Below, in pieces: positions 10 to 20,835 of a stretch of DNA of 23,543 bases. The notes beneath the pieces were generated by a model. That model was not told the origin of the DNA and did not search any database. It was given only the letters and a program-made list of their open reading frames with translations. The stretch's first letter is position 1, and every line of letters starts with the position of its first letter. Position numbers and translations under genes: made by a program. The DNA comes from a virus, in the IMG/VR virus record IMGVR_UViG_3300042453_005840, positions 1 to 23,543 of that record, one strand, 5' to 3'.

Positions 10-19
10 TATTATTTAA
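10..19 (-). promoter_or_regulatory. late-promoter-like TTAAATAATA motif, edge copy
   Basis: On the minus strand this reads TTAAATAATA, identical to the motif before the starts at 4229, 4561, 5734 and 7279. It follows the kinase stop codon and points to a gene whose start lies just off the left edge. It resembles the T4 late consensus TATAAATA through the shared TAAATA core. The match is seen directly; promoter function is inferred. Confidence 0.5.
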
Positions 20-2345: not shown

Positions 2346-2373
2346 ATTATACTGACTTCAGAGCTTATTTCAA
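2346..2373 (-). promoter_or_regulatory. sigma70-type promoter for the que operon
   Basis: On the minus strand the -35 box TTGAAA (2368-2373) is followed by a 16-base spacer and a perfect -10 box TATAAT (2346-2351). The ATG of the first gene begins 8 bases after the -10 box. Transcription should start at about 2339-2338, so the message would be leaderless or carry 1-2 bases. The -35 box lies just upstream of the adenylyltransferase gene's stop codon edge (2365-2367), with which the spacer overlaps. This is the best promoter match in the window and marks the que operon as early. Confidence 0.75.
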
Positions 2374-2979
2374 CTTTTTATTAAACAAGTTATATATACT
2401 CGGATCAAACTTACCATAAAGGTCTACGATGATTTGCTTTTTTTCTGGCTCTGTAACATGCTTATATATATCTCTTATTTGAGTTGCCCCTGTAATAGTT
2501 TTACCCAACACTTTAAAAGGAAAAGTTTTTCCTACTTTTACGTAGCCTTTTTCTCCCATAGGGAGCAACTTGTCGGCATCTTCTAATTTTTGCAAATAGG
2601 GCATTGTGCCGTCTTTTTTAGGTTTGTAAGAAAAACGGTCTGCATCTTTTTGAGATACCACATAAATTAAATGATCTTTATTTTCATTATAATTTTTAGT
2701 TATCTCTTTTGCTACATAGGTAGCAGCAACCTGTATTATGCGATCTCTAGGTACGCCTGCTTTTTCTAATAAAAATTTACGTTCTTGAAAATTAAACGGT
2801 GACTTTTCATTAACAACATTAGATGTAGCTACCCATACATCCGCATCTGGATATTCTTGTACTAAAGCATTATAAGCCGCAGCATGTCCTTTGTGTGCAG
2901 GTTGAAATCGACCGGAGTAAATTATTACAAGTTTACCATCTCTTGTTTGTTCGGTAAAAAAATTATTAAAAGCTATCAT
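2365..2979 (-). CDS. NMN-adenylyltransferase-like nucleotidyltransferase
   Basis: A 204-residue protein of the HIGH/(H/T)xGH nucleotidyltransferase superfamily. The signature GRFQPAHKGH is at residues 23-32, and the C-terminal ITGATQIR (162-169) matches the ISSTxIR phosphate-binding motif of nicotinamide-mononucleotide and phosphopantetheine adenylyltransferases. Such enzymes join a nucleotide phosphate to AMP or CMP, for example NMN + ATP to NAD. The gene overlaps the upstream ligase-like gene by 4 bases (ATGA), so the two are probably made together. Possible roles are NAD synthesis during infection, replenishing NAD against NAD-depleting host defences, or activation of another small phosphate. 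The fold is clear; the substrate is inferred. It could equally be a cytidylyltransferase. Confidence 0.75.
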   Translation of the reverse strand: MIAFNNFFTEQTRDGKLVIIYSGRFQPAHKGHAAAYNALVQEYPDADVWVATSNVVNEKSPFNFQERKFLLEKAGVPRDRIIQVAATYVAKEITKNYNENKDHLIYVVSQKDADRFSYKPKKDGTMPYLQKLEDADKLLPMGEKGYVKVGKTFPFKVLGKTITGATQIRDIYKHVTEPEKKQIIVDLYGKFDPSIYNLFNKKLK

Positions 2980-4229
2980 TTAAATTTATCCTCTTTTGAA
3001 ATTGCAAAATTTGCTTTAGAAAATTCTAATCTATCGACAAGTTTTACCATATTACCGACCTTGTCTACAGCAACGAACCCTTCACCGGGGGTAACTTTAA
3101 GTGTGCCGTCTGGTTGTGTTAAAAATTGTTTTGTTTTAATAGCAGAAGAGTACTTGTTAAAAAATATTTTTTTAAGCTCTGCTAATTTTTTTGTTATGTT
3201 AAAGATATTGACTACAGACATTTTGTTGGTATTAAAAAATTGAACTGCTTTATCTTTAGCATCTACTTTTTTTTGTCTACCAGCTTCGGTTTTCATTTTA
3301 TCTGCCTCTTTGTCCATTCTGGCATTGTACCAACTTATAAACTCGTTGAAGGTTTCTTCCGGATCATCTACAAATTTACCTTGGCGGATAAGAGTGTTTA
3401 TAAATGTGTTGGCTAAAATATAAAAATTATTAGGAAGTGCTGTCCAGTCTGTTATCCCTGAAGCCTTTTGTATTGAGTTTACTGTTTCAGCAATAACTTG
3501 TTTTTCGTTATCCGTTAGTGTTACCGTACCAGAAACATCTTTAAACTTAGCATCGTCAAACCAAACTTCTGGAGTTTGATTAAACTCTGAAACATTAACA
3601 TCAGCTGACTTTGAAAGTTCTGTCAAAGAAGGTCCTGTATAACGAGTATGAAATACTACACCGATTTGAGCGTTTTGAATTCTTTTGCCAAGCTCAGAGC
3701 TAGCTTCAACAGCGTATGTAATGGTATTAGGCTTGAAAGTAATTAGTTTTTCACCTTGAAAGTTTATTTGATTGAGTGTAGCTTTATCAAACATAAAGTC
3801 ACATTGATATACATTAGACTTTATAACTTTTGAAAGATATAAAAGAGCCATCTTCATTTTTTCGGCCAATCCGGGTGCTTGACCGTAATTTATCTGAATA
3901 TCTTGAACAGTGTAGTTAATTTTTGGTGTCTTCGCTGCTATACTTTTTGTAGACACAAAAAACTTATTATTTTCAGGATTATAACCACAAATTATAGCAG
4001 GTGCGCCGTCGTATTTTACCGTTGTAAAAACACCAGAATCAGCATTACCGTTAAAAGCGTCCATGAGAGCATTGATAAATGAGAGAGCGGTATCTAGTCC
4101 TTCCTTTTGACGAGTTAAAATAAGCTCCTCTAAATGGGTGAGATGCTTTATAATACCCGTTTGTTGTTCAATAACAAGGTATTTACTAATACTGTTTTTA
4201 TAAAAGCTATTAAAAGCTTGTTCAATCAT
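2976..4229 (-). CDS. large phage protein with ligase/nucleotidyltransferase-like motifs
   Basis: A 417-residue protein. It contains motifs like those of the covalent nucleotidyltransferase superfamily (DNA ligases, RNA ligases, capping enzymes): motif I K72-Y-D-G75, where the lysine would carry AMP; a possible motif III at YQCDFMFD (141-148); motif IV EGFV (383-386); and motif V VKLVD (395-399). The segment ITFKPNTITYAV (163-174) reads like a conserved block of phage relatives, which I believe are catalogued as a domain of unknown function. The middle (about 200-370) is helical and polar, unlike a minimal ligase. The gene starts 7 bases after a TTAAATAATA motif and overlaps the adenylyltransferase gene by 4 bases. 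Nucleotidyl transfer is an inference from motifs; which nucleic acid or protein is the acceptor is not visible. Confidence 0.5.
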   Translation of the reverse strand: MIEQAFNSFYKNSISKYLVIEQQTGIIKHLTHLEELILTRQKEGLDTALSFINALMDAFNGNADSGVFTTVKYDGAPAIICGYNPENNKFFVSTKSIAAKTPKINYTVQDIQINYGQAPGLAEKMKMALLYLSKVIKSNVYQCDFMFDKATLNQINFQGEKLITFKPNTITYAVEASSELGKRIQNAQIGVVFHTRYTGPSLTELSKSADVNVSEFNQTPEVWFDDAKFKDVSGTVTLTDNEKQVIAETVNSIQKASGITDWTALPNNFYILANTFINTLIRQGKFVDDPEETFNEFISWYNARMDKEADKMKTEAGRQKKVDAKDKAVQFFNTNKMSVVNIFNITKKLAELKKIFFNKYSSAIKTKQFLTQPDGTLKVTPGEGFVAVDKVGNMVKLVDRLEFSKANFAISKEDKFK

Positions 4230-4236
4230 AACGCTG

Positions 4237-4246
4237 TATTATTTAA
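4237..4246 (-). promoter_or_regulatory. late-promoter-like motif before the ligase-like gene
   Basis: The minus strand reads TTAAATAATA, ending 7 bases before the ATG at 4229. The TAAATA core matches the T4 late consensus TATAAATA. Initiation a few bases downstream would leave at most a very short leader. It overlaps the stop codon of the possible 22-residue ORF at 4239-4307. Confidence 0.55.
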
Positions 4247-4307
4247 GCGTTAAGAGATAGCGTAGTTTATTAATAACTGCTAGAATTTCGTCTCTGAATT
4301 TGCTCAT
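4239..4307 (-). CDS. possible 22-residue ORF beginning MSKF
   Basis: An ATG at 4307 opens 22 codons (MSKFRDEILAVINKLRYLLT, then LK) before a TAA. The first four residues match the start of the upstream 82-residue protein (MSKF), and the ATG is only 5 bases after that gene's stop (TAA CTGGT ATG). It would form one short amphipathic helix. The AAATAA of the following promoter motif supplies its stop codon. It may be a leader-type ORF coupled to its neighbours, a decayed gene end, or chance. Little more can be said at this length. Confidence 0.3.
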   Translation of the reverse strand: MSKFRDEILAVINKLRYLLTLK

Positions 4308-4312
4308 ACCAG

Positions 4313-4561
4313 TTACACAGCAGGTTGTGTAGCGATATTAGGCTGTTGTGCAGTTTTTTGTTGCTGTTGTTTTTGAGCGTCGAGAATTTGTTGCAACACT
4401 TTTGGATCCAAATTAAGCAATTTTGCAGCTTGCTGAACGGCTTGTTGTTGCTGAGCAGGAGTTTGATTTGTTGTCTGATTTCCTGCAGCAGGCTGCGTTT
4501 GCGTAGATGTAACGGGTAACGCTTCTTCTATTTTTTTATAAACGGCATCAAATTTACTCAT
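4313..4561 (-). CDS. small glutamine-rich protein
   Basis: An 82-residue protein of low complexity. After an N-terminal helix (MSKFDAVYKKIEEALP, residues 1-16) it is dominated by Gln, Ala, Thr and Pro, with runs such as QQQQ and a Q-rich tail. One more ordered stretch, LLNLDPKVLQQILDAQKQQ, lies between about residues 48 and 66. There are no cysteines, membrane segments or enzymatic motifs. It follows a TTAAATAATA motif by 3 bases, so it is probably a late gene and perhaps a minor virion or assembly protein. The family is not recognised. Its low-complexity tail makes homology searches unreliable. Confidence 0.6.
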   Translation of the reverse strand: MSKFDAVYKKIEEALPVTSTQTQPAAGNQTTNQTPAQQQQAVQQAAKLLNLDPKVLQQILDAQKQQQQKTAQQPNIATQPAV

Positions 4562-4564
4562 ATA

Positions 4565-4574
4565 TATTATTTAA
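4565..4574 (-). promoter_or_regulatory. late-promoter-like motif before the Gln-rich gene
   Basis: The minus strand reads TTAAATAATA, separated from the ATG at 4561 by only TAT. This is one of the closest pairings in the window. If it acts as a T4-like late promoter, transcription would begin at or very near the start codon. Confidence 0.6.
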
Positions 4575-4628
4575 TCAGGAACAGTAATTTTCTCGGCCTA
4601 TTTGGCGAAGGGCTTACAATTCTTTACA

Positions 4629-5120
4629 TTAATTAGGGGTGCCGTTAGCTAAATCAACTGTGCCCATTGAAAAAGTTTTAGTTTTTTTATTTTTCTTTTG
4701 AAAATTGTATAGAGCGTTTTTCTTGAGAAATTTTTCAAGCTTTGAACTAATAAGTTTATTACTTGATACAGCTCTTAGAATAGCATATTCAGTATCCGGA
4801 GAATCTAGTTGTTTAACTTTAACCCACGGTACCGGAAGCACCTTTAAAACATTTTGTAAATGTTTATCGGTAAATCCTACTTCTTTCGGTAAAGAGTAAA
4901 CAACAAGCGCTTTAGGGTACTTTGAACTGCATTTTTGATATCCATGACAAAGTTTATCGAGACAGTAGTGATAAAAGAATTTTTGAATATCCTTAGATTT
5001 AAAGCTGTAAGGAATCTTATACTTTTTACAGAATCCATACGACTCTTTTAAAGCTTCTAAAAAGTGGGGATAAAAATCTATACCGCAAACGCGAGACTTA
5101 GGGTATTCTTTAAAATGCAT
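4629..5120 (-). CDS. hypothetical protein
   Basis: A 163-residue basic protein that I do not recognise. It has five cysteines scattered in the first half (in VCGIDFY, GFCKKY, YCLDKLCHG and QKCSSKY), a central alternating region (ALVVYSLPKEVGF) that suggests a beta strand and helix, and a lysine-rich C-terminal third (KKNKKTKTF). No catalytic motif, signal peptide or membrane segment is visible. The ATG at 5120 overlaps the stop of the upstream zinc-module gene by one base (TAATG), so the pair is translationally coupled. A 67-base spacer separates its stop from the motif before the Gln-rich gene. By context it belongs to the late minus-strand block. Confidence 0.6.
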   Translation of the reverse strand: MHFKEYPKSRVCGIDFYPHFLEALKESYGFCKKYKIPYSFKSKDIQKFFYHYCLDKLCHGYQKCSSKYPKALVVYSLPKEVGFTDKHLQNVLKVLPVPWVKVKQLDSPDTEYAILRAVSSNKLISSKLEKFLKKNALYNFQKKNKKTKTFSMGTVDLANGTPN

Positions 5121-5734
5121 TATTGTAATAATGCTTGAACTTGCTCGAGTGTCAAGCCATCTTTAATAGCACTATCAGTAGTTTCATGAAGTTGGGCAAA
5201 AATATTATTAATCTTTTGCTCGTACTCTAAAAACTTTTTATGGTTTTCTTTATTGTACTCAATTTTAGAAGCATTTTCTAAAATTGCTGTCTGGTTTATA
5301 AGATCTAATTTTGAACCAAGATATTTTTTAATTTTTAAAATTGTTTTAGTTTCTGAAGAATAAGCGGCTTTTTCTTGTTCAGTAATAGGCTCTTTAACTT
5401 TATCTCCTTTTTCATTTACAATACCGAGTTTATAAGCTTCAAAATCTGTAAAGTTTTTATTAAGTTGTTGGGTTAAAAATTTGTTTTTTAAAGATTCGTT
5501 AAACATTTTGTTATAATCAATACCGTGAAGATGTATATCAGAAAACGGATTTAATTTACACCCACGACCGTAATTTGGTGAACCACAATAAGAACATTTT
5601 TTAGCATCACTTGGATGAAAATGCACTCCTTTAGGCGCATACCTACAACCTTTACCATAAGATGTCGCATTGCAATATAAACACCTTGAAACCGGCTTAA
5701 AAGAGGAAGCTTTTTTTTCGTCAATTAGTTCCAT
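5120..5734 (-). CDS. protein with two tandem zinc-binding-like modules
   Basis: A 204-residue protein whose first 71 residues hold two copies of one module. Copy 1 is C18-x2-C21-x8-C30-x7-H38-x-H40. Copy 2 is C47-x2-C50-x8-C59-x8-H68-x-H70. Both share a YGxGC core and a P-rich link to HxH. Three cysteines and a histidine pair are a plausible zinc site. The rest is polar and helical, with coiled-coil-like stretches near residues 130-200. The spacing implies an internal duplication. Zinc-ribbon-like modules of this shape occur, as I recall, in other T4-type phage proteins of unknown role; binding of nucleic acid or protein is possible. Its ATG lies 4 bases after a TTAAATAATA motif and overlaps the GIY-YIG gene's stop. 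Confidence 0.65.
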   Translation of the reverse strand: MELIDEKKASSFKPVSRCLYCNATSYGKGCRYAPKGVHFHPSDAKKCSYCGSPNYGRGCKLNPFSDIHLHGIDYNKMFNESLKNKFLTQQLNKNFTDFEAYKLGIVNEKGDKVKEPITEQEKAAYSSETKTILKIKKYLGSKLDLINQTAILENASKIEYNKENHKKFLEYEQKINNIFAQLHETTDSAIKDGLTLEQVQALLQ

Positions 5735-6153
5735 TATGTATTATTTAAGAGGTTCTTGGGCGGAGTCCCGATACGAACATTTATAATTCCGTTGTAATAG
5801 TCATTCCTACGAAGAACGTCTCGAGCTATCTGTTCTTTAATCTCTTCGTATCCGAGTTCCCATTTGGAACCACACACTTTTAAAATACGAAATTCAAAAT
5901 TTTCTTTGCCATATTTTTGAATATCTTCGTTTAGTTCTTTTGAAGATGAAGTGTATGTTTTCCAATCTGATTCTTTATGATCTATTCTATTACGAGTTTT
6001 GCCCTTAAGGGGCTTACGTTTAATTTTACGGATACACTGCTTTTTACCGATATATTTTTTACCATTAACCTTGTTTGCTATTTCATAAATGAAACCAAAC
6101 ATGTTTTCATGTATATAAACATTTTCGTTAATGAGCCAATGACCGGTATCCAT
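5734..6153 (-). CDS. GIY-YIG family endonuclease-like protein
   Basis: A 139-residue protein. The GIY-YIG signature appears as GFIY (residues 20-23) and YIG (34-36), followed by a basic segment (KKQCIRKIKRKP) that could supply the catalytic arginine. A later KWELGYEEI segment could supply the metal-binding glutamate. DWKTYTSSSKELNEDI and KYGKENFEF are typical of short phage GIY-YIG proteins often labelled Seg-like homing endonucleases. Such enzymes cut one or both DNA strands; free-standing copies commonly spread between phage genomes. It lacks a clear C-terminal DNA-recognition domain, so it may be a minimal nuclease. M18 is an alternative start just before the motif. Its stop overlaps the zinc-module gene by one base. 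Degradation of host DNA or repair are other possible roles. Confidence 0.7.
   Translation of the reverse strand: MDTGHWLINENVYIHENMFGFIYEIANKVNGKKYIGKKQCIRKIKRKPLKGKTRNRIDHKESDWKTYTSSSKELNEDIQKYGKENFEFRILKVCGSKWELGYEEIKEQIARDVLRRNDYYNGIINVRIGTPPKNLLNNT
5739..5748 (-). promoter_or_regulatory. late-promoter-like motif before the zinc-module gene
   Basis: The minus strand reads TTAAATAATA, 4 bases before the ATG at 5734. It lies inside the last codons of the upstream GIY-YIG gene, where it encodes Leu-Asn-Asn followed by Thr and the stop codon. Confidence 0.55.
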
Positions 6154-6162
6154 AAAGCAGAA

Positions 6163-6375
6163 TTAGCGTTTTTTCTTACGCTTTTTCTTGCCCTTAATTA
6201 AGCCGCCGCGGGTCATTACACCACCCTTACCATATATCGAATAGGGAATTCTTGTATCTCCAGATGCATATGTATCCCCAGAAAACTGGGATGTACCCCC
6301 AGCCGGAGCTCCTAAAACTGCAGCAGCAGTCATTTCATTTAAAGCGTCTAAAATTATTTGTTCTAAATTAATCAT
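6163..6375 (-). CDS. small protein with Gly/Ser middle and poly-basic tail
   Basis: A 70-residue protein in three parts: an N-terminal acidic helix (MINLEQIILDALNEM), a Gly/Ser/Thr-rich middle (GGTSQFSGDTYASGDTR), and a strongly basic end (KGKKKRKKKR, the final ten residues). The tail could bind DNA or another polyanion. I do not recognise the family; similar small proteins occur, as I recall, near structural genes of T4-type phages. Its start codon overlaps the upstream gene's TGA (ATGA) and lies 1 base after a TTGAATAATA motif, so both coupling and its own late promoter are possible. Confidence 0.6.
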   Translation of the reverse strand: MINLEQIILDALNEMTAAAVLGAPAGGTSQFSGDTYASGDTRIPYSIYGKGGVMTRGGLIKGKKKRKKKR

Positions 6376-7142
6376 ATATTATTCAAATCAATATCTTCCA
6401 AATCCGGGAACTGCTGTTTTAGTTCGATCAAATGTCCTGCCCCTGCAAAACAACATCCTCCATTACCCATTAAATTATAAATTGTGGAGTTTCTTTCTTC
6501 TTCAAGTTTATGCATTAATTGACCAAAATATGTAGATGTATTAGGATATTCTTGACCTTTTGGATACACACTTAACTCCATTTCTGTTAATAAATTAAAA
6601 AGTTTCTCTTTATCATAAGGTTGATTAAGCTTTTCATAAAATCCTGCTTTTTTCATATGATAAGAAAGCCACTGTAATCGCTTATTAGGATCTTTTGGAG
6701 AATTTTTCGGCCAGTGTGTAGCAGGTCTTGCCAAAGCATCAAGCATGGTACCCTTTGTGTATGTGTACTGTTCTATAATTTTATTAAATTCATGCTGCAT
6801 AAAAACATATACAATATTGTAATTTATATTAGCCGTTCCTTTACCTTTATTTTCTGTTATATCGTCCCAAGATAAAGACTGTATAGGATATTTTAAATTA
6901 TTTTTTTTCATAAACGGAACCATTCCTGGTTCTTTGCTATAATCTTTTGCAGCTACGCCTTCAGCGTAAAATTTAAGATTAGGTATTTGTTTTATTCTTT
7001 GTATAAGGTCTTGAGATAATTCTATACTTTTACCATGTTCAACCCCTATACAACATCCTGTACTACCTCTAAAAACAATACCTTTGTTAGCATATGTTTG
7101 TGCTTGCTCAAGAATTAAATTTACTAAATTATTAAAGTTCAT
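6372..7142 (-). CDS. TraB/Tiki/GumN-superfamily-like protein
   Basis: A 256-residue protein. The residues that define the TraB/PrgY-Tiki-GumN family are two GX2H motifs, a glutamate and an arginine. All have candidates here in the right order: G33-V-E-H36, E61 in YAEG, R217 in EEERN, and G234-A-G-H237 followed by L. The layout, N-terminal GX2H with a Glu about 25 residues on and an Arg about 20 residues before the second GX2H, also fits. Members include metalloproteases that cleave Wnt (Tiki) and bacterial proteins of unclear substrate. Cys-Cys pairs just before both motifs (30-31, 230-231) may be a local trait. I chose ATG 7142, which overlaps the upstream TGA (ATGA); a GTG at 7160 would add six residues. 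There is no signal peptide, so it is probably cytosolic or virion-associated. The assignment rests on motifs only. Confidence 0.5.
   Translation of the reverse strand: MNFNNLVNLILEQAQTYANKGIVFRGSTGCCIGVEHGKSIELSQDLIQRIKQIPNLKFYAEGVAAKDYSKEPGMVPFMKKNNLKYPIQSLSWDDITENKGKGTANINYNIVYVFMQHEFNKIIEQYTYTKGTMLDALARPATHWPKNSPKDPNKRLQWLSYHMKKAGFYEKLNQPYDKEKLFNLLTEMELSVYPKGQEYPNTSTYFGQLMHKLEEERNSTIYNLMGNGGCCFAGAGHLIELKQQFPDLEDIDLNNI
6377..6386 (-). promoter_or_regulatory. late-promoter-like motif (TTGAATAATA)
   Basis: The minus strand reads TTGAATAATA, one change from the common motif, ending 1 base before the ATG at 6375. It forms the last codons (Leu-Asn-Asn-Ile) of the upstream TraB/Tiki-like gene. 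Confidence 0.45.
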
Positions 7143-7279
7143 TTGTTTACTTTTACACACTTATTTACTCTAGTACCATCTTTAAGCTTTGTACCAGCTC
7201 TGCGATAACCCTTCCAGCATTTTGGATCTAATCTACGCTTTTCTTTTTTTTCAGCTAAAAATTGCTTAAAGGATTGCAT
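7139..7279 (-). CDS. 46-residue basic protein with CWKGYRRAGTK motif
   Basis: A short gene directly before the TraB/Tiki-like gene, overlapping it by 4 bases (ATGA). It encodes 46 residues: an N-terminal helix (MQSFKQFLAEKKEKRRL), then DPKCWKGYRRAGTK and a short DGTRVNKCVK end. The two cysteines (C21 and C41) flank a basic segment. From memory, the DPKCWKGY...GTK...G..VNNCV pattern recurs at the ends of, or as, small proteins in many T4-type marine phages, where its function is unknown. The ATG lies 5 bases after a perfect TTAAATAATA motif, and the ATGA coupling, pattern and motif together make a real gene likely. Confidence 0.75.
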   Translation of the reverse strand: MQSFKQFLAEKKEKRRLDPKCWKGYRRAGTKLKDGTRVNKCVKVNK

Positions 7280-7284
7280 ATATA

Positions 7285-7294
7285 TATTATTTAA
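7285..7294 (-). promoter_or_regulatory. late-promoter-like motif before the 46-residue gene
   Basis: The minus strand reads TTAAATAATA, 5 bases before the ATG at 7279. Unlike other copies it lies in noncoding DNA, in the divergent region between the minus-strand block and the plus-strand recombination genes. Confidence 0.6.
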
Positions 7295-7336: not shown

Positions 7337-7756
7337 ATGGATGATCAAGAACAGTCTGTTATCTCGTTAATTGAAAAATATAACGAAGAGATCAAAAAAT
7401 ACGTTACCGTAGATGAGTTTAATATGAAGCAGGTTCAGATGGATCTGCCAGCTACCCGTCACTACTGGGTCGGTCGTCTTATGTACCACAAACAAGAAAT
7501 TTTAAAGCTCAAAAAGCTAAGAAAAGAGGCTCAGAAAAAAATTGCTGATAAACTAGAGCATGAGTCACCTGTCGGTCTTAATCCTAAAACTTTAGAACAA
7601 GCTCAGCAAAACCATCCTCTTATTGCTAAAATTGACGGTCAGATTGCAGAGCATGATCTTATTGTAGAATATTTGGGTAAGATTGAAGCTAATTTTAGAT
7701 CTATTTCGTTTGACATTAAAAATCTTATAGAGATTGTCAAACTTGAAACAACGTAA
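7337..7756 (+). CDS. uvsY: UvsY-like recombination mediator
   Basis: UvsY loads the phage recombinase UvsX onto single-stranded DNA covered by gp32. At 139 residues this protein is almost the T4 length (137). The similarity is in layout: a block with HYWVGRLMYHKQEILKLKKL (about residues 42-61) followed by EAQKKI, then an aspartate-rich turn and a C-terminal helix (FDIKNLIEIVKLE). T4 UvsY has matching YSKWLNKHSSIKKEMLR, EAQKKV and FAIKHI segments. The protein is mostly helical and charged. It overlaps uvsW by one base (TAATG), as expected for the uvsY-uvsW pair of T4-type phages, which strengthens the call. The ATG lies shortly after a promoter-like TTATATAC block, with no Shine-Dalgarno sequence. 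Confidence 0.8.
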   Translation: MDDQEQSVISLIEKYNEEIKKYVTVDEFNMKQVQMDLPATRHYWVGRLMYHKQEILKLKKLRKEAQKKIADKLEHESPVGLNPKTLEQAQQNHPLIAKIDGQIAEHDLIVEYLGKIEANFRSISFDIKNLIEIVKLETT

Positions 7757-9201
7757 TGGTAAATGTAACGTTCGATTATGATACATCTCGCAAAAAAGGT
7801 ATAATAGTTTCAGACTATCTACCTAATATTCGAGAACACTTTTCGGTTGAAGATAAACAGCAAGTCTTCAAGCGCCGTTATGCTATTGGCTATAGGCCTC
7901 AAACAAGGCAATACGCTATAACACCTCAAGGTAGATTTGAACCTAGATTACTCTTTTCGATTCTAGAGTTTTTACAGAGTCAAGATATACAGTTTAATAT
8001 AGAGCTTACTAATAAGTTTAGAGATATTATTACTATACCTACTCTAAAAGAAGAACTTATAAAGTTAAATTTAGATCCTCGAGACTATCAAGAAGAGTCG
8101 GTCTTAGCTGCTATTAAAAATAAGTCAGGTGTTATTGTCCTGCCAACTTCGGCAGGTAAGACGTTAGTAATTGCTTTACTTGTTAAATCTATTCAAGCAC
8201 AGCACGATTGTAAAACATTAATTCTTGTACCTGACATTCAGCTTGTAGCACAAACCTATTCTGACTTTCTTGAATATGGAATACCGGAAGAAGAAGTTAC
8301 TAAGTGGACAGGATCGATAGAACCTAATAAAAGCGCTAAAATAGTAATTTCAAATGCACAAATTTTACTTTCTGAAAAACAAGATTTATCTTTGCTTAAA
8401 GATATAAAATTACTTGTTATAGATGAAGTACATAAAATTCGTTATGGAAACAAAATTAATAAAGTGGTGGAGCAAATTCCTGCATTATTTCGCTACGGAC
8501 TTACAGGAACTTTGCCAGACAATAAAATCGACCAATGGAACATATTCGGGAAGATAGGAAGAGTAATTTACTTCAAACAGTCAGCTGATCTTAGAGAACA
8601 AAAGTATATATCTCAGGTTCACGTTGCTGCTTTGAAGTTAAACTACAGTAATGTTCCTCAATTTACAATTCCTTCTATGCATAACCCAACAGCCGGGTAT
8701 GAAGAAGAAATAACCTGGTTACAAACAAATAAGTTTAGAAACGATATTATAACTAAACTTGTTAATAAACAAGATAAGAATACCCTTATAATGGTTGATC
8801 GTATTGCTCATGGTGAAGAACTATTGAGAGTGCTTCAAGAAGGTACTACTAAAGAGGTTCACTTCGTACATGGTGCTGTAGAAATTGAAGAACGAGAAAT
8901 GATTCGTAAACTTATGGAAGAGCAAGATAATGTAGCTTGTATTGCCATTTCAAAGATCTTCTCAACCGGTATTAATATTAAAAACCTACATAATATTATT
9001 TTTGCTGCTATTGGAAAGGCCCGAATAAAAATTATTCAGTCAATTGGTAGAAGTTTAAGAAAGCATGCTAGTAAAAAACGGGCTACTATTTTTGATATTT
9101 GGGATAATTTAAGATATGGTAATAAGCATGTTGTGGAGCGTTTAGCACTTTACGACCGGGAGCAAATATCTTATTCAGTTACGGAATTATACGAGAGTTG
9201 A
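7756..9201 (+). CDS. uvsW: UvsW-like superfamily 2 helicase
   Basis: UvsW unwinds branched DNA and R-loops, helping the switch from origin-dependent to recombination-dependent replication. The 481-residue protein (T4 UvsW is about 500) has an N-terminal domain of about 100 residues. It is followed by helicase motifs: a Q-like RDYQEE (109-114), motif I PTSAGKT (130-136), motif II DEVH (223-226), motif III-like GLTGT (248-252), a second RecA-like domain, and motif VI as QSIGRSLRK near residue 430. All ATPase residues look intact. It is coupled to uvsY by a one-base overlap. Its end overlaps the -35 box of the next promoter. UvsY next door separates it from generic bacterial SF2 helicases. Confidence 0.88.
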   Translation: MVNVTFDYDTSRKKGIIVSDYLPNIREHFSVEDKQQVFKRRYAIGYRPQTRQYAITPQGRFEPRLLFSILEFLQSQDIQFNIELTNKFRDIITIPTLKEELIKLNLDPRDYQEESVLAAIKNKSGVIVLPTSAGKTLVIALLVKSIQAQHDCKTLILVPDIQLVAQTYSDFLEYGIPEEEVTKWTGSIEPNKSAKIVISNAQILLSEKQDLSLLKDIKLLVIDEVHKIRYGNKINKVVEQIPALFRYGLTGTLPDNKIDQWNIFGKIGRVIYFKQSADLREQKYISQVHVAALKLNYSNVPQFTIPSMHNPTAGYEEEITWLQTNKFRNDIITKLVNKQDKNTLIMVDRIAHGEELLRVLQEGTTKEVHFVHGAVEIEEREMIRKLMEEQDNVACIAISKIFSTGINIKNLHNIIFAAIGKARIKIIQSIGRSLRKHASKKRATIFDIWDNLRYGNKHVVERLALYDREQISYSVTELYES

Positions 9202-9225
9202 TTTATTTACAAGTTGTTATATACT
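9198..9225 (+). promoter_or_regulatory. sigma70-type promoter before gene 55
   Basis: A -35-like TTGATT (9198-9203) is followed by a 16-base spacer and a -10-like TATACT (9220-9225). The larger block TTGTTATATACTA is shared with the promoter before gene 46. The ATG begins 7 bases after the -10 box, so the message should be leaderless or nearly so. The -35 box includes the uvsW stop codon. Confidence 0.65.
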
Positions 9226-9232
9226 ACCTATT

Positions 9233-9796
9233 ATGCCTCGTCGTAGAAAAATTAAAGATGAAGATTTTAGTTACGATCCCAATGAAGAAGATTTTTCTTC
9301 TCTCTGGGATTCAGATATAAAAGTAAAGAAAAAACGAGTCCGTCGTACCAAGGAAGAACTTAAACCGAATTATGTAGACCCTATAGAAATGGAAAGCCTA
9401 ATTTCACAGTACTACAAAGAAGGCGGTAAAGATATTCCCTCTGATTTAGCCGACATGATACAAAAAATAGCCACCCGTCTTGGATATGCACAGAATTTTA
9501 TCAATTATTCTTATAAAGAAGAAATGATTGGCGATGCAATTATTAAAATGATTACAGCATTAACTCGTAAACGTTTTAAATGTAATTCAGGTTATAATCC
9601 ATTCTCTTATTTCACAAAAGTAGCTTATCGAGCTTTTCAAAACCGTATTAAAAAAGAAAAGAAAGAACACGACACCATTCATCGTTATCAAAACGAGGTC
9701 TACTCTTTACTTACTGAATCTGGTCAAATACCATTTCAGAAAAATACAAAATTTGATACCGAGTATGATGATTCATACCGTTTAGAAAATCAATAA
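9233..9796 (+). CDS. 55: gp55-like late sigma factor
   Basis: T4 gp55 is the small sigma-like factor that directs host RNA polymerase to TATAAATA late promoters. This 187-residue protein (T4 185) matches it in the sigma region 2-like core: YKEEMIGDAI (residues 94-103), then NPFSYFTKVAYRAFQNRIKK (122-141) and KEKKE. T4 has [29 protein letters not shown] and ERKE. It has a basic N-terminal stretch (VKKKRVRRTK, 31-40). The last residues (DDSYRLENQ) do not obviously resemble the hydrophobic clamp-binding end of T4 gp55 (SLDFLYEANDE), so coupling to the sliding clamp may differ. The TTAAATAATA motifs on the opposite strand are its likely targets. The gene overlaps gene 47 by one base. Confidence 0.85.
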   Translation: MPRRRKIKDEDFSYDPNEEDFSSLWDSDIKVKKKRVRRTKEELKPNYVDPIEMESLISQYYKEGGKDIPSDLADMIQKIATRLGYAQNFINYSYKEEMIGDAIIKMITALTRKRFKCNSGYNPFSYFTKVAYRAFQNRIKKEKKEHDTIHRYQNEVYSLLTESGQIPFQKNTKFDTEYDDSYRLENQ

Positions 9797-10857
9797 TGCA
9801 GTTTAGTTCAAATAAAGTCGCTTGTATATCGGATATACATTTAGGGGTCCATCAAAATTCCCAAACGTGGCATAATATAGCTATAGATTTTGCGAAATGG
9901 TTCGATCAAGAGCTAAAACTCAGAAATATAAAAGATATTATTATTGCTGGTGATATATTTCACAATCGCCATGAGATAGGTGTTAATACTATTCATTGCG
10001 CTTATGAATTTTTTAATATCTTAAAAAATTACAATATTTTAACAATAACAGGTAATCATGACTGTTATTATAAAGATAAATCAGATATCAATTCTATATC
10101 TATTCTTGACGGTTATAAAAATGTAACAGTTTTTAATGAACTTAAAACCGTTAATCTTAATAATAAAGTCTTTTGCTTCTGCCCTTGGGGAGTACCTGTA
10201 GAAGAAATACCACCCTGTGATATAGTAATCGGTCATTTTGAAATTCTAAATTTTAAAATGAATACCCATAAAGTTTGTGATCACGGTATTGAGAGTGAGT
10301 CGTTATTAGATAAGACAAAACTCGTTATTACAGGTCATTTTCATTGTCGGGATCATAGAAAATATACAAACGGTAAATCTATTATCTATCTTGGTTCACC
10401 GCACGAACTTGACTTTGGCGATAGAGAGCAAGTGAAAGGATTTACTATTCTCAACACTGATGATTTATCGCTTGAACTTGTAGAAAATAATATAACACCA
10501 AAACATAAAAAAATAAAAATTTCTGATCTTTTAGACGGTAAACTTAATTTAGAAAATATTTCTACTGAACTGCAAAACAATTTTATTAGTCTTTGCGTTG
10601 ATCGTAACGTTAATGAGCAAATATTAAACGTAATGTTTTCAAAATTTAATCAGTTTAAACCTAAACACGTTAGAACTGATTTTAATATTTTTGAAGCAGT
10701 TCAATTATCAGCAACTGAACTTAATGAAATATCTATAGATATTGATACTGCTTTACATGAATTTGTAAATCTTCTAGATACACCAGTACCTAAAAAAGAT
10801 ATTCTTGATAAATGTATTGATTTGTACCGAATTTCTCAAACAGTAAATGAACACTAA
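9796..10857 (+). CDS. 47: gp47-like recombination nuclease subunit (Mre11/SbcD type)
   Basis: Gp47 is the nuclease subunit of the gp46/gp47 complex, which resects DNA ends for recombination-dependent replication. The 353-residue protein (T4 339) has the calcineurin-like phosphoesterase motifs in order: DIH (13-15), GDIFH (52-56), GNHD (86-89), GHFE (146-149) and GHFH (180-183). The metal-binding residues appear complete. The C-terminal third is less conserved and should contact gp46. It follows gene 55 by a one-base overlap. Its partner gene 46 is not adjacent: it begins about 10.7 kb downstream, beyond the glycosyltransferase island, whose first gene overlaps the last 11 bases of 47. Confidence 0.9.
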   Translation: MQFSSNKVACISDIHLGVHQNSQTWHNIAIDFAKWFDQELKLRNIKDIIIAGDIFHNRHEIGVNTIHCAYEFFNILKNYNILTITGNHDCYYKDKSDINSISILDGYKNVTVFNELKTVNLNNKVFCFCPWGVPVEEIPPCDIVIGHFEILNFKMNTHKVCDHGIESESLLDKTKLVITGHFHCRDHRKYTNGKSIIYLGSPHELDFGDREQVKGFTILNTDDLSLELVENNITPKHKKIKISDLLDGKLNLENISTELQNNFISLCVDRNVNEQILNVMFSKFNQFKPKHVRTDFNIFEAVQLSATELNEISIDIDTALHEFVNLLDTPVPKKDILDKCIDLYRISQTVNEH

Positions 10858-11641
10858 AATTGGAGTCGGAATTATAACCTGTGATAGACCTGATTATTTT
10901 AAAAAACTGATCAAGTCTTTAGAAGGTATTTCTATCTCTGATTTTTATATTATTAATGACGGCGAAAAACAGATAAACGGTGGAGGGGTAAAAACTCACA
11001 ATAACATACCACCCAAACAAGGTGTTGGTAAAGCTAAAAATCAGGCATTGAGATATCTTAAAGATTGTGATTATATTTTTCTTTTAGAAGACGATATTAT
11101 TATTAAAGATAAAACTGTATTTGCAAAATACATAGAAGCTTCGAAGATATCGGGCATTCAGCATTTTAATTTTGCATTTCATGGTGTTGATAATTACTTT
11201 TCAGATGGGTCCCCTGCTGTACGCTTAAAACTAGATTATTCGCCGACAGTTTCAGTTAGTTTATACCCAAATGTGTATGGTGCTTTTTCAATGTACACAA
11301 AAAAATGTATTGAAGAAGCGGGTTTAATGGACGAGTTTTATTATAATGCTATGGAGCATGTTGATCATACCACTCTTATTATTAAAGCTAACATGCATCC
11401 TCCGTTTCGTTGGTTTGCTGATATTACAAACAGTCACAAATATATTGAAGAAATTGACAGAGCTCATTCTGGTTCTGAAATTCGCAGAGATCAAAAATGG
11501 ATTGAAAACTTCTGTACTGCTTGCAATTACTTCACTCAAAAACATGGTTTTGATGTTCGAGACCCTCACGCAACAGTAGCTTCAAAAGAAGAAACAATAA
11601 ACGCCATAAAACAAATTAAAAATAAGTATGGACAAAAATAA
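10847..11641 (+). CDS. GT2-like glycosyltransferase, tandem copy 1
   Basis: A 264-residue GT-A type enzyme. The opening IGVGIITCDRPDYFKKLIKSL (split at residues 5-25) is the classic GT2 nucleotide-binding start, and LLEDDIII (79-86, EDD at 81-83) is the DxD-type site that binds the metal and sugar nucleotide. Downstream, a PPFRWFADIT block is shared with the next gene. It begins inside the 3' end of gene 47 (11-base overlap), so it is translated in the same operon, and it overlaps the next gene by 14 bases. No membrane segment is present, so it should act in the cytosol. Sugar and acceptor are unknown. It is clearly a paralog of the following gene. Confidence 0.8.
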   Translation: MNTKIGVGIITCDRPDYFKKLIKSLEGISISDFYIINDGEKQINGGGVKTHNNIPPKQGVGKAKNQALRYLKDCDYIFLLEDDIIIKDKTVFAKYIEASKISGIQHFNFAFHGVDNYFSDGSPAVRLKLDYSPTVSVSLYPNVYGAFSMYTKKCIEEAGLMDEFYYNAMEHVDHTTLIIKANMHPPFRWFADITNSHKYIEEIDRAHSGSEIRRDQKWIENFCTACNYFTQKHGFDVRDPHATVASKEETINAIKQIKNKYGQK

Positions 11642-12410
11642 AATAGGTATTGGTATAACTACATATAACTCTGAAGAGTATTATGAAACACTTTATAATT
11701 CTTTACCTCTAGACAAAATTGATATTTTAGTTACTGTTAATGGCGGTCAAGTATATAAAAACAAATATAACAGTAATTGGATACAACACATTGAAAACGT
11801 TTATCCTTCTGTCTGTAGAAATGATTGTATCAATTTCTTACTTCAAAGGGGTTGTGAGCATATTTTTATAATTGAAGATGATATGATTTTAAAATCACCA
11901 AATATTTTTGATGAATACATTAAGGCATCAAAAGAATCTGGTCTTAAGTATTTTTCATTCGTGTCTACGTCTTGGGAATCAGGAACGCCGGGCAGCAGAA
12001 CACCACGTCTAACTGTTGAATATAAGAACGGTGTTAATATATCTTTTTATAAAAATATGTGCAATGAGTTCACATATCATCATAGAACATGTTATACTAA
12101 AACAGGTCTGTATGATACAAATTATCGAGATCCTTGGGACATAGATATGGCATACAGAGAATCTCAACAAGATTACGCAGCACCGTTTTGGTGGTTTGCA
12201 GATATTACAATTTCAGATAAGTTAATAATGAACAACCCTAACGCCGTTTCTCGCCTACAAGGCGAACGACCTGACGGATCAAGAGAACAAAGAATACAAA
12301 AAGAGTGGCAGTACTTTGTGCAGAAACACGGTATTATGGTTAATCAAATTTCTGATACATCAAAAGAACAGGTAATACAAAAACTTAAAAATATATGTAC
12401 GAAGAGTTAA
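11628..12410 (+). CDS. GT2-like glycosyltransferase, tandem copy 2
   Basis: A 260-residue paralog of the preceding protein. Matching blocks are IGIGITTYNS near the N-terminus, IIEDDMIL with EDD at residues 83-85, an EYIKASKESGLKYF helix, WWFADIT and a C-terminal QKHG. The fold and catalytic region are thus the same, but the acceptor-side residues after the EDD have diverged, suggesting a different linkage or acceptor. It starts 14 bases inside copy 1 and its last bases overlap the methyltransferase remnant. There is no Shine-Dalgarno sequence. Cytosolic by the absence of hydrophobic segments. Donor and acceptor unknown. Confidence 0.78.
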   Translation: MDKNKIGIGITTYNSEEYYETLYNSLPLDKIDILVTVNGGQVYKNKYNSNWIQHIENVYPSVCRNDCINFLLQRGCEHIFIIEDDMILKSPNIFDEYIKASKESGLKYFSFVSTSWESGTPGSRTPRLTVEYKNGVNISFYKNMCNEFTYHHRTCYTKTGLYDTNYRDPWDIDMAYRESQQDYAAPFWWFADITISDKLIMNNPNAVSRLQGERPDGSREQRIQKEWQYFVQKHGIMVNQISDTSKEQVIQKLKNICTKS

Positions 12411-12565
12411 AAAAATTATATAATAGAAACGACATACCAGATTTTTTACAAAAAAAATATCCGAACGGTATTGGTATTGAGCTTGGTGTTGCAACTGGCC
12501 AGTATTTAACTGAATTAGCTGAGATAGTCACCTTCCCTTGCAGTTCATGGTTTGTATTTAAATAG
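12395..12565 (+). pseudogene. truncated SAM methyltransferase remnant
   Basis: A 56-codon reading frame begins at ATG 12395, inside the end of the previous gene, and stops at TAG 12563. It holds a helical start (MYEELKKLYN) and then GIGIELGVATGQY (residues 26-38), which is the SAM-binding motif I of class I methyltransferases. The intact methyltransferase at 19450-19977 has the matching AEIGVFEGGFSNL in the same position. After about residue 45 the similarity ends and a short unrelated tail (FPCSSWFVFK) leads to the stop. The remaining domain, including motifs after motif I, is missing, so activity is not expected. It looks like what remains after a deletion or a recombination event joined the next glycosyltransferase gene here. 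Confidence 0.6.
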
Positions 12566-12566
12566 T

Positions 12567-13367
12567 ATGAAAATTATTATTGGTATAAACAACTTTAAAA
12601 AAGAAGAAAATCTTAATCACAGAGAAAAAATGTGTATTGATTCTCTTTTTAAATTAAAACAGCTTTATCCTGATTTACAATTAATAAATTTAACGTTTAA
12701 AGACGAAAAATTTGCTGCACTAACAGGTTTTAATAACCTGCATTGTTTACAACAAATACCAAATGGTATTACTAATAAAAAAATACCTTTCGTAAACGAA
12801 ATTTTTGATAATTTAGCTAATATTAATTCAGATTATTTTATTTTCATTAATAATGATAATCTAATATCTAACAGATATATAAAAACAATTTTACAAAATA
12901 CAGAGTATGATTGTTTTCCGGCATCTAAGCTTCATTTTATGAAATTAGATTCGATAGATGATTTAAACAGTGAGCCTCAATCTTTAAGTGTACATGGTTT
13001 TGATGGTTTTGCTATTAAAAATGAATGGTGGAAACAAAACCGACAAAACTTCCAACCTATGCTTTTAAGCAGGGCATACTGGGATACATATTTTTACTGT
13101 AAATGTCAGCTTTATGGAAAATGTTTAACACTTAATAAACCACCCGCTGTTTTATTTCATCTTGATCATAAAAGTTCCTCTATGGAACAAGACGCCGGTA
13201 ATACATATAACGAACAAATTTTTGCGCAGGATAAAGATAATTTACCTCAAAAATGGTTTTCTTATGTACAGAACGTTTTATTAAAGCGTTCGACTCAAAA
13301 CAATATATTATGGTACGTACCATTTGCAAACGAGACTGAATTGGAAAAACAATATTTTTCAAAATGA
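12567..13367 (+). CDS. glycosyltransferase-like protein (GT-A type)
   Basis: A 266-residue protein with a GT-A layout: a beta-strand opening MKIIIGINNF, an N-terminal helix, and YFIFINNDNLIS with a NND element near residues 95-98 in the place of the DxD motif. A VHGFDGFAIKNEWW block follows near the middle, and HLDHKSSS later could hold metal-binding histidines. The exact CAZy family is not clear; it is GT2-like. The ATG at 12567 is preferred to a TTG at 12552 because it follows the remnant's stop directly and begins at the conserved strand. Its end overlaps the next gene by 4 bases (ATGA). Soluble, with no membrane helix. Confidence 0.6.
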   Translation: MKIIIGINNFKKEENLNHREKMCIDSLFKLKQLYPDLQLINLTFKDEKFAALTGFNNLHCLQQIPNGITNKKIPFVNEIFDNLANINSDYFIFINNDNLISNRYIKTILQNTEYDCFPASKLHFMKLDSIDDLNSEPQSLSVHGFDGFAIKNEWWKQNRQNFQPMLLSRAYWDTYFYCKCQLYGKCLTLNKPPAVLFHLDHKSSSMEQDAGNTYNEQIFAQDKDNLPQKWFSYVQNVLLKRSTQNNILWYVPFANETELEKQYFSK

Positions 13368-14113
13368 AAACAATACTAATCAGTTTTGCATCTGAAGATA
13401 AAAAATACGGTCATCGTTTTTTTAGATCTCAAAATATATTAGTTGAATCAGCCAAAAAATATTTTAATGGTTATATTTCATACAACCCTAGTAACATAGA
13501 AGAAGATTTTTACCAGCGTAATAAAAATATTTTTTCCCAAGATAGAGGCTACGGGTATTGGTTATGGAAGCCTTATATTATAAATAGAGCATTAAAGTTA
13601 CTAAATGACGGTGATACATTGTTTTATGTAGATAGTGGTAATTCTGTAATTAGTGATATTCAACCTTTAGTTGACATTGTTAAAAACGACCAAAAAGGTA
13701 TTTTATTATTTGAAAATAGAGATGGTTCGCCACCAGGAACTATTTGGAAAAATATAGAATGGACAAAGTACGACTGTTTTAATAAAATGAATTGTTTAGA
13801 AGAAAAATTTGTAAACGGAAACCAAGTGAACGGTTCATATATACTTTTAATAAAAAACAATTACACTAATAACTTTTTTAATGAATATTTAAATTACTGT
13901 CAAGACGAAGATATTTTAACAGATAAACCTTCACAATTAGGTCCTGAGTTTCCAGCATATAAGGCACACAGACACGATCAATCTGTACTATCATTGATGT
14001 CAATAAAATATGATATTACAATAGCGAGAGATCCTTCAGAATGGGGCAACAAATACATTTCGAAAAAATTTAACTACCCTCAAATATTTCTACATCATCG
14101 CGGTTTTATCTAA
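13364..14113 (+). CDS. glycosyltransferase-like protein with GYGYWLWKP motif
   Basis: A 249-residue protein. Key blocks are GYGYWLWKP (residues 62-70), LFYVDSG (86-92, a possible D-x-S/G metal site), and HRHDQSVLSL (202-211). This combination, an N-terminal strand, a GxGYWxWKP segment, a YxDxG motif and a late HDQS, is one I associate with an uncharacterised glycosyltransferase-like family found in capsule and phage clusters. The HDQS motif resembles the DQ-containing end of GT8/GT32-type folds. It starts with an ATGA overlap on the previous gene, and the next gene begins immediately after its stop codon. There are no hydrophobic segments. Its sugar and acceptor are unknown. Confidence 0.6.
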   Translation: MKTILISFASEDKKYGHRFFRSQNILVESAKKYFNGYISYNPSNIEEDFYQRNKNIFSQDRGYGYWLWKPYIINRALKLLNDGDTLFYVDSGNSVISDIQPLVDIVKNDQKGILLFENRDGSPPGTIWKNIEWTKYDCFNKMNCLEEKFVNGNQVNGSYILLIKNNYTNNFFNEYLNYCQDEDILTDKPSQLGPEFPAYKAHRHDQSVLSLMSIKYDITIARDPSEWGNKYISKKFNYPQIFLHHRGFI

Positions 14114-14905
14114 ATGAATAATATTGTTTTAGCTTTATCTTTAAATTATACTACAGATTTTTTAAAACCATTTTTAAAAAGTTTTGAAAAGTATTCTTCA
14201 GGGCAATTACATTTAATAACAGATATACCTGACAATTTTAAGGAATATAAAAATGTATTACCTATCGATATTAGAACTTTGCTTATTGAGCATAATATAC
14301 CCGCTAATTTAACTGCTTTTAATTACAAACCAATTTTGTTTTACCTCTATCTTAAAAAATTTCAAGATATTCAGCATGTATTAATCTCAGATACCGATGT
14401 TATTTTTCAAAATGATCCTTTTAAAGCAGGTAAAAAACTTATTAATACTGAAAATGACTTCGTTATCTGTGAAGAAAAAAAAGCATTTACAGATTGTACA
14501 GTTAATACTACTTGGCTTCGTGTTAGCTATCCTGATTTATTAAATGAACTAACACCTCTTAAAATATTAAACAGCGGTATAGTTTATGGCCATAAAATTG
14601 CATTACAAGATTATTTTAAAAAAATGGCATATGAAATGCAAAATATTTTACCTAAGTGCAATTACCCTATTTTAGATCAAATAATATTAAACGTTTTGTA
14701 TTACAAACACAAAAATATTGCACCAAAACTTCTAACACACGGTAATGATTTCATTGTACATCTTTCACAGGTTAATGATTCTGAACTAACCGAAAGCAAC
14801 ATACAAAATAATTTATTTACTTTTAACAACAATATCCCTACTATTGTACATCAATATAACAAAAAACCTATATTGAATAATTTTTATACTAAACTATACT
14901 TGTAG
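14114..14905 (+). CDS. glycosyltransferase-like protein with DTD motif
   Basis: A 263-residue GT-A-type protein. VLISDTDVIFQNDPF (residues 89-103) contains the DxD motif (D93, D95) in the typical context of GT8-like and related enzymes, where a strand ends in D-x-D and is followed by a loop with NDP. LNSGIVYG further on matches the usual NSG segment. The C-terminal half has a late HQY block that may close the active site. It begins with no spacer after the previous stop and ends one base before the next start. It lacks a recognisable ribosome binding site, as do most genes here. Donor and acceptor cannot be told. Confidence 0.65.
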   Translation: MNNIVLALSLNYTTDFLKPFLKSFEKYSSGQLHLITDIPDNFKEYKNVLPIDIRTLLIEHNIPANLTAFNYKPILFYLYLKKFQDIQHVLISDTDVIFQNDPFKAGKKLINTENDFVICEEKKAFTDCTVNTTWLRVSYPDLLNELTPLKILNSGIVYGHKIALQDYFKKMAYEMQNILPKCNYPILDQIILNVLYYKHKNIAPKLLTHGNDFIVHLSQVNDSELTESNIQNNLFTFNNNIPTIVHQYNKKPILNNFYTKLYL

Positions 14906-14906
14906 A

Positions 14907-15851
14907 ATGGACTCTAATTTAGTATACGTGTTTTTAACAAGCAATTTTTGTGCACCTAAAAACACAACACCTAGTCAATGGAGCTATAATAGTATACCTG
15001 ATTACTATTTAAAAACAATACAGCATAATTCTAAAAAATTTAAAAAAAGCTATTTTTTAACAGAGAATAGTCAAATAAAAACTATAAAAAAACAATTAAC
15101 AGATATTTCTAACCTTATTGATATCGTACCCGTTGAAGATTTAATTTGCAATACCGATGAGTTTAAAGAAACTATTAGTGTACTAGACACATTATGGCCT
15201 CGATATCGTTACGATACATTTTGGTTTGTTACATTTATTCGAAGTATTTTATTAGGAATTTTTATTAATGAACAAAAATTAAAAAATACTATACACGTTG
15301 AAGCTGATAATTTAATTTTTGCAGAAAGTTTAAAATCTCTATTTGAACTTCTAGAATCGGGAGAGTTTGCTTATTCTAATGAAGCGCCGTATGCATCTGC
15401 TTTAGCACTTATGGCTTTTAAAGATGAAATATCCGGACAAAATTTTGTTAAACATCATATCACACTTTTAAAAAAAGGAGATCAAACTTTAAATCCGTAT
15501 GTAGGCCATTTTTATGGCCATGTAACTGATATGGCTTTTATAGATCTAATATATCGCGCTAAAAAGAATTACAGAATGTTACCATGCTTGCCCTATGGTC
15601 CTTTTTCAGAAAATTTTGACAAATTACAATGTGTGTTTGATCCTATATCGTATGGTCAGTTTTTAGGTGGCACTAATCAAGGCGCTTCAGCTGGTTATAC
15701 CGAATATAGACATTATGTCGGAAAAGAAATAATAGAAAATAAAATAAAAGTTTTTTTTGACAAAAAACCATTTATACAATATAATAATAAATTAATACCT
15801 ATCTTTAATTTACACCTACACAACAAAAAAGCTATACAACAATTTTTATAA
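14907..15851 (+). CDS. probable glycosyltransferase with VEADN motif
   Basis: At 314 residues this is the longest gene of the island. An N-terminal strand (LVYVFLTSNF) and a central TIHVEADNLIFAE (residues 128-140), with D134 in a relaxed ExD arrangement, suggest a GT-A fold. The region LALMAFKD (about 168-176) and the aromatic-rich LPCLPYGPF segment (about 225-233) are unusual for GT2 enzymes. The C-terminus carries a QGASAGYTEYRHY block. It may belong to an uncharacterised glycosyltransferase-like family, and the class is inferred mainly from neighbours and from the N-terminal pattern. It follows the previous stop by one base, and the next gene follows it by one base. Confidence 0.5.
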   Translation: MDSNLVYVFLTSNFCAPKNTTPSQWSYNSIPDYYLKTIQHNSKKFKKSYFLTENSQIKTIKKQLTDISNLIDIVPVEDLICNTDEFKETISVLDTLWPRYRYDTFWFVTFIRSILLGIFINEQKLKNTIHVEADNLIFAESLKSLFELLESGEFAYSNEAPYASALALMAFKDEISGQNFVKHHITLLKKGDQTLNPYVGHFYGHVTDMAFIDLIYRAKKNYRMLPCLPYGPFSENFDKLQCVFDPISYGQFLGGTNQGASAGYTEYRHYVGKEIIENKIKVFFDKKPFIQYNNKLIPIFNLHLHNKKAIQQFL

Positions 15852-15852
15852 T

Positions 15853-16650
15853 ATGTTAATTGTCGATAATATAATAACACCTGAAAAAATTATATCTCTT
15901 GCACAAAATTGTTTAAGTGAAAGACGCAATTGTGGAATACATCTTGAACCTTCTCGAAACATTTTCTTTGTTAAGACTGACTATATTAATGATTTTTATA
16001 ACCGTTATTTGCCACACATTGATTACGATTTTATACTATTAACTCACGATTCTGATATTCCAGTTACTGAAACTCATCTACCTATTTTAAACCACCCTCG
16101 TTTGATAAAATGGTTTGGGATGAACTGTCATATTTTGCATGATAAATTACAACCAATACCTATAGGTATTGCTAATGAGTGCTGGCCACACGGTGATAAA
16201 CAATCTTTACTTGATATAGCTAATGATACAAATATCACTAAAACAGGTCTTGTGTATTCCAATTTCAGTGAGGGTACAAATTTAAATCAAAGACAAAACG
16301 TAAATACAATTCTAAATGATTTAAAAGGCCTTTATATAGAAACAAGCAAAAAAACCTATAGAGACTATTTACACACAGCAAAACAATATAAATTTATAAT
16401 ATCTCCTCCGGGCAATAGTGTTGATTGTCATCGAATTTGGGAATCAATATATATTGGTACAATACCAATTGTACTTAAAAGTATACCAATGGTCTTTTTT
16501 AAAGATTGCCCAATACTTTTTATTAATAATTGGAACGACCTGTTTCAAATAAATTTAGAAGAAAAATACAATATCTTAGTTCAAAAGTCAAAAGAAAAAG
16601 CTAATTTTGATTTTTATAGGGAAATTATTTTAAAGACTGCCTTATTATGA
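15853..16650 (+). CDS. exostosin/RXYLT1-like glycosyltransferase (GT-B type)
   Basis: A 265-residue protein that differs from its GT-A neighbours. The C-terminal half contains the block SPPGNSVDCHRIWESIYIG (residues 184-202), then TIPIV (203-207). This is the pattern of the exostosin (GT47) and RXYLT1-type C-terminal nucleotide-binding domain, in which the glycine-rich loop, the DCHR and the WE pair contact the donor. The N-terminal half has an LLTHDSDIP segment (62-70) and PIGIANECWPHGD (103-115). RXYLT1 is a human xylosyltransferase; the phage protein lacks any membrane anchor. It ends with an ATGA overlap on the next gene. The family call is good; the sugar is unknown. Confidence 0.72.
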   Translation: MLIVDNIITPEKIISLAQNCLSERRNCGIHLEPSRNIFFVKTDYINDFYNRYLPHIDYDFILLTHDSDIPVTETHLPILNHPRLIKWFGMNCHILHDKLQPIPIGIANECWPHGDKQSLLDIANDTNITKTGLVYSNFSEGTNLNQRQNVNTILNDLKGLYIETSKKTYRDYLHTAKQYKFIISPPGNSVDCHRIWESIYIGTIPIVLKSIPMVFFKDCPILFINNWNDLFQINLEEKYNILVQKSKEKANFDFYREIILKTALL

Positions 16651-18745: not shown

Positions 18746-18749
18746 AATT

Positions 18750-20834: not shown

Positions 20835-20835
20835 T

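Follow-up and report, generated by a model that had tools for sequence, protein, structure and literature searches.

The window, which is the whole stretch of DNA analysed here and comprises a complete virus record of 23,543 bases at 31% G+C, is a 23.5 kb fragment from an uncultured T4-like myovirus. Its recognisable genes include those for a helicase, two recombination proteins and a late sigma factor, and four minus-strand ORFs lie under copies of a short repeated box:

2976..4229, minus strand: DUF6267 gene (PHROG 455), a T4-like hypothetical, under the box at 4237-4246
4313..4561, minus strand: 82-aa ORF beginning MSKFDAVYKK, under the box at 4565-4574
5120..5734, minus strand: 204-aa ORF, PHROG 2086 (function unknown), under the box at 5739-5748
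7139..7279, minus strand: 46-aa ORF, MQSFKQFLAEKK, with a T4 capsid-targeting-like N-terminus, under the box at 7285-7294
7756-9201: UvsW-type helicase, a T4-like protein
9233..9796, plus strand: gp55-type late sigma factor gene (PHROG 234, E 2.5e-24)
9796-10857: gp47-like recombination protein, by homology in relatives
21586-23382: gp46-like recombination protein, by homology in relatives

The window also encodes a SegE-type endonuclease. Queuosine/deazaguanine pathway genes, QueE-like and QueD-like, are found at 661-1419 and 1604-2050, and an island of about 12 ORFs, several of them glycosyltransferase- or methyltransferase-like by eye, separates the gp47 and gp46 homologues (10847-21564). 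Late-type ORFs with T4 capsid-targeting-like N-termini (MQSFKQFLAEKK, MNFNNLVNLILEQ and MIAFNNFFTEQ) start on the minus strand of the window at 7279, 7142, 6375 and 2979, and at 11119, 12804 and 101352 of the relative G002; they carry an (L/F)xE-type site some 9-12 residues from the start, a feature that internal head proteins processed by the gp21 protease would be expected to show.

A close isolate was not found among the phage collection, where the best tblastn identities were about 30-38%, and IMG/VR relatives range from 39% to 100% identity over the DUF6267 protein and from 41% to 100% over gp21. Three large relatives, G002 (103 kb), G009 (112 kb) and G003 (75 kb), together supply 324 ORFs of at least 60 aa, and G013 (236 kb) and G014 (87 kb) are deeper sister contigs; genes were called as first-ATG ORFs, with no trained gene finder, on contigs that are incomplete. 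Big tRNA arrays are present in L042, L043, L036, L030 and L046, and 20 tRNA genes in G003.

The copies of the box in the window are as follows:

10..19, minus strand: candidate late-promoter box aimed off the left edge; an ORF (MFNF...) lies 14 nt after the box in relatives G001, G002, G003 and G004
4237..4246, minus strand: candidate late-promoter box, TTAAATA (4246-4240) plus ATA, before ATG 4229 of the DUF6267 gene
4565..4574, minus strand: candidate late-promoter box before ATG 4561 of the 82-aa ORF
5739..5748, minus strand: candidate late-promoter box before ATG 5734, lying inside the upstream SegE-like GIY-YIG ORF at its 3' end
6377..6386, minus strand: variant TTGAATAATA before ATG 6375, probably not a promoter
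7285..7294, minus strand: candidate late-promoter box, conserved in relatives, before ATG 7279

Five of these are exact copies of TTAAATAATA, where dinucleotide shuffles of the window predict 0.92 and none of 100 shuffles reached five. Because the count is no higher than chance once a single mismatch is allowed (23 versus 21), the signal resides in the exact core together with its position. The gaps of 7, 3, 4, 1 and 5 nt that the sequence-only reading gave between motif and ATG at 4229, 4561, 5734, 6375 and 7279 are all exact, and the further copy that it saw pointing off the left edge is present. That reading listed all six copies as possible late promoters, a view that stands for the five conserved in relatives but probably not for the sixth. 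In relatives, the copies at 4237, 4565, 5739 and 7285 keep a fixed or near-fixed distance to the orthologous ATGs: a 10-nt spacing is kept at 4237-4246 in 12 of 16 distinct upstream sequences, 6 nt at 4565-4574 in 4 of 4, and 7 nt at 5739-5748 in 13 of 15. The copy at 6377-6386 was rejected as a promoter, as the box is missing in relatives of the downstream 70-aa gene; this segment encodes the C-terminus of an upstream 256-aa ORF that relatives lack at that place, and the match is probably due to chance.

The association of the box with start codons extends across the lineage. The sequence-only reading had proposed plotting the motif against gene starts genome-wide, and in G002, G009 and G003 the two are strongly tied: [ACT]TAAATA occurs 85 times at 4-16 nt before the ATG against 2.1 expected, with 7 occurrences (4.2 expected) at 17-42 nt and 3 (8.2 expected) at 43-93 nt. 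Similar behaviour is seen in the further relatives G015-G018. The spacing is stricter still in G013 and G014, where the distance from box to ATG is exactly 5 nt at 74 distinct sites and TAAATA at exactly 5 nt is the top-enriched pair of hexamer and position (83 versus 0.41 expected); in G013, 64 instances of HTAAATA-N5-ATG were counted, and 4 of the reversed control. TAAATA tops all 15 permutations of its own bases at 4-16 nt before starts, with 30-fold enrichment, and is followed by words that overlap its own register (ATAAAT, ATAATA, AATAAT). A logo of 78 sites reveals no conserved -35 region and an AT-rich downstream segment.

The genes that carry a near box are predominantly those for virion proteins. 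Seven large relatives together contain 53 virion genes recognised as T4 homologues, 31 of which have such a box; of the 63 recognised replication or metabolism genes, 3 have it, each of them phoH. The Fisher p of 8e-11 exaggerates the contrast, since orthologues are not independent, but the bias recurs in each contig. The roughly 40% of recognised virion genes that lack a near box would be read from upstream promoters. With regard to the transcription machinery, six of seven large relatives have a gp55 homologue, a gp33 homologue was not detected in these incomplete contigs, and gp45 gave at best a marginal match (G009, E 0.0025), the gp45 Pfam control matching nowhere in the same incomplete set.

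The box resembles the T4 late promoter, TATAAATA, which works with gp55, gp33 and gp45 (PMC2988020). The match of its TAAATA core to T4 late promoters, suggested from the window, is borne out by the lineage, in which no word before starts is more enriched than the TATAAATA-like [ACT]TAAATA, and the gp55-type sigma factor reported nearby is indeed encoded at 9233-9796. The likeness extends to the lack of a -35 region, the AT-rich downstream sequence and the preference for virion genes. It does not extend to position 1 of the box, which unlike in T4 may be A, T or C in the lineage, or to placement. The contrast with the leadered T4 layout is upheld: T4 boxes lie mostly 21-28 nt before the ATG, with strong Shine-Dalgarno (SD) sites in the leader, whereas those of the lineage lie mostly at 4-16 nt, with no SD. 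The same script found 3 near (4-16 nt) and 12 mid (17-42 nt) boxes in the T4 late region, 0 and 4 in Syn9, 2 and 8 in S-CAM9, 0 and 8 in XG4, and 2 and 14 in Melnitz, and in T4, the cyanophages, Melnitz and XG4 the box is mostly 18-36 nt before the ATG. Pelagibacter phage HTVC008M has both layouts. Like the lineage, it has a class of 11 genes with the box exactly 5 nt before the ATG, all at deposited start codons and with weak SD pairing; unlike the lineage, it retains many leadered genes with 18-31 nt spacing and strong SD pairing (mean -6.1 kcal/mol).

Pairing with the anti-SD sequence further separates the lineage from these phages. Against an internal-ATG control, an SD signal is absent before lineage start codons, where pairing does not exceed that at internal ATGs (in G002, +0.07 versus -1.13 kcal/mol), as opposed to strong pairing, -5.05 versus -1.27 kcal/mol in T4 and -3.83 versus -1.38 kcal/mol in HTVC008M. 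The missing signal suggests that the host probably does not depend on SD sites. A phage-encoded ribosomal protein, bS21, is found in G002 (4091-4225) and G003 (18502-18642), and no phage record matched it by tblastn. The best matches of the G002 protein among solved ribosomes are 9i5v and 7jil, the latter from Flavobacterium johnsoniae. A Bacteroidota host is thereby only hinted at, since TAnnTTTG, the -7 box typical of Bacteroidota, shows no enrichment in front of starts. Scans of genome contigs with the gp21 protease and a glycosyltransferase-like ORF of the window, aimed at the host, returned no relatives. Lake phages with bS21 and assigned Bacteroidetes hosts are known (PMC9723584). A phage-encoded IF3 was looked for without success.

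Taken together, the evidence, all of it drawn from sequence, makes it likely that gp55-type late promoters yield leaderless or ultra-short-leader mRNAs in this lineage. The motif would serve as the -10-type box, with [A/T/C]TAAATA as its core, in a T4-type late promoter, and its predicted reader is the gp55-like phage sigma acting on host RNA polymerase. Numbering of the T4 late box begins at -13 (PMC2988020), so that its last base is at -6, five bases remain to +1, and a gap of 5 nt puts the A of AUG at +1. By this geometry, from which we infer leaderlessness, placement of the box would set +1 at the AUG or up to about 10 nt before it. The predicted starts are 4234 for the box at 4237-4246 (a 5-nt leader before ATG 4229), 4562 for 4565-4574 (1 nt before ATG 4561), 5736 for 5739-5748 (2 nt before ATG 5734) and 7282 for 7285-7294 (3 nt before ATG 7279). 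Since spacing in the window's own clade ranges from 4 to 16 nt, many mRNAs would have leaders of 1-10 nt rather than none. Weighing against the leaderless reading are this spread of spacing, the virion genes that lack a near box, gp23 among them, and the lack of a gp33 match or a firm gp45 match in the incomplete contigs. In the 5-nt class of the clade, T precedes the ATG in 20 of 20 cases, and in classes of longer spacing an A usually lies 5-6 nt past the box; both agree with the pyrimidine/purine preference of transcription starts. Translation of the late virion mRNAs would begin without an SD site, the ribosome probably recognising the 5'-terminal AUG directly.

Could the motif instead be a translation signal, an unstructured A/U-rich segment that aids SD-independent ribosomes as in Bacteroidota? 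The lineage does have no SD signals, and its upstream regions are A-rich in general. However, the enrichment is specific to one hexamer and far exceeds that of its permutations, the box marks virion and not replication genes, it lies farther upstream of starts in T4, Syn9, S-CAM9 and Melnitz, and A-richness leaves the exact 5-nt spacing of G013 and G014 unexplained, so that we regard a purely translational role as improbable. It is also conceivable that the boxes are artefacts of start-codon choice or AT-richness, with real starts downstream and the boxes being chance AT-rich words that contain a stop codon. First-ATG calling and the box's internal TAA might bias the calls towards ATGs that follow the box, but enrichment of words that contain TAA and are free of the register (TAATAA, TAAAAT, TTAAAA) is no more than 1-3 fold, whereas TAAATA reaches 24-30 fold, which argues against both AT-richness and the in-frame TAA as causes. 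Furthermore, the N-termini that follow the ATG are conserved, gp21 aligns with gp21 of HTVC008M from residue 3, and the 5-nt starts of HTVC008M are deposited annotations; an artefact is thus the least credible account, with hardly any probability left to it.

A third alternative accepts the boxes as late promoters and places +1 farther upstream, or has 5' extensions added, for instance by slippage as in poxvirus late mRNAs, to give real leaders. T4 late transcripts are normally leadered, as the spacing of their boxes allows, but initiation upstream of a -10-type box would break the geometry of the T4 late promoter (PMC2988020), and the exact 5-nt class offers no homopolymer at +1 to permit slippage. 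We hold such hidden leaders to be very improbable, and favour leaderless or nearly leaderless late mRNAs.

Leaderless placement, originally proposed for late genes, is supported there by the boxes; it is not, however, confined to them. In box-less genes, sigma70-like -10 hexamers peak 6 nt before the ATG (16 versus 1.33 expected), which is the leaderless distance for a -10 element that ends at -7. The two kinds of promoter, each with its own offset, both point to leaderless mRNAs. In the window, two such candidates are seen:

2346..2373, minus strand: sigma70-like promoter TTGAAA-N16-TATAAT, ending 8 nt before ATG 2337
9198..9225, plus strand: sigma70-like promoter TTGATT-N16-TATACT for the gp55 gene, separated by 7 nt from ATG 9233, a leaderless-like position

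The major capsid gene, gp23, has no near box. Its upstream leader contains a conserved GGTCGAAA element in L063-L127 and G016. Most nearer relatives also have AAAGGAG there, 10-15 nt from the ATG, and no other SD-like site recurs in the virion genes of this lineage. Tentatively, and with the balance of probability against it, it may be that a whole T4-like lineage has come to express its genes from leaderless mRNAs, with host-sigma-type early and gp55-type late promoters both setting +1 on or next to the AUG, and with gp23 as a conserved leadered SD exception that a different ribosome state possibly translates, some members encoding bS21.

Leaderless late phage mRNA is already known. Middle and late mRNAs of Thermus phage phiYS40 are leaderless, as reviewed in PMC3594737, and phiYS40 is thus alike in expressing late genes from leaderless mRNAs; it differs in having a Thermus host, in which leaderless genes are common, and the accessible part of that review describes no T4-type gp55 late promoter. 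In Deinococcus-Thermus, genes with a -10 element adjacent to the ORF, a few bp upstream, likewise produce leaderless mRNA (PMC12340547), but these are cellular genes read by RpoD, whereas the lineage combines a phage late sigma box with sigma70-like early boxes. In marine T4-like phages, late genes are preceded by NATAAATA or TATAAATA late promoters, and the accessible part of that report does not mention leaderless placement (PMC2984593). The open-access literature searched yielded no account of T4-like phages with leaderless late transcription, and no leaderless report for HTVC008M. A lineage-wide origin of leaderless late mRNA from T4-type late promoters appears to be undescribed.

For these uncultured phages, the position of the box provides a precise rule for annotating start codons, and HTVC008M, which is cultured and has both layouts, makes the leaderless question directly testable. 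T4 late transcription is a textbook system, in which leaders carry the ribosome-binding sites. A lineage-wide move of its promoters to the leaderless position would show how phage promoter placement is adapted to Shine-Dalgarno-independent translation and, if confirmed, a classic phage switch would have been refitted for a different mode of translation start.
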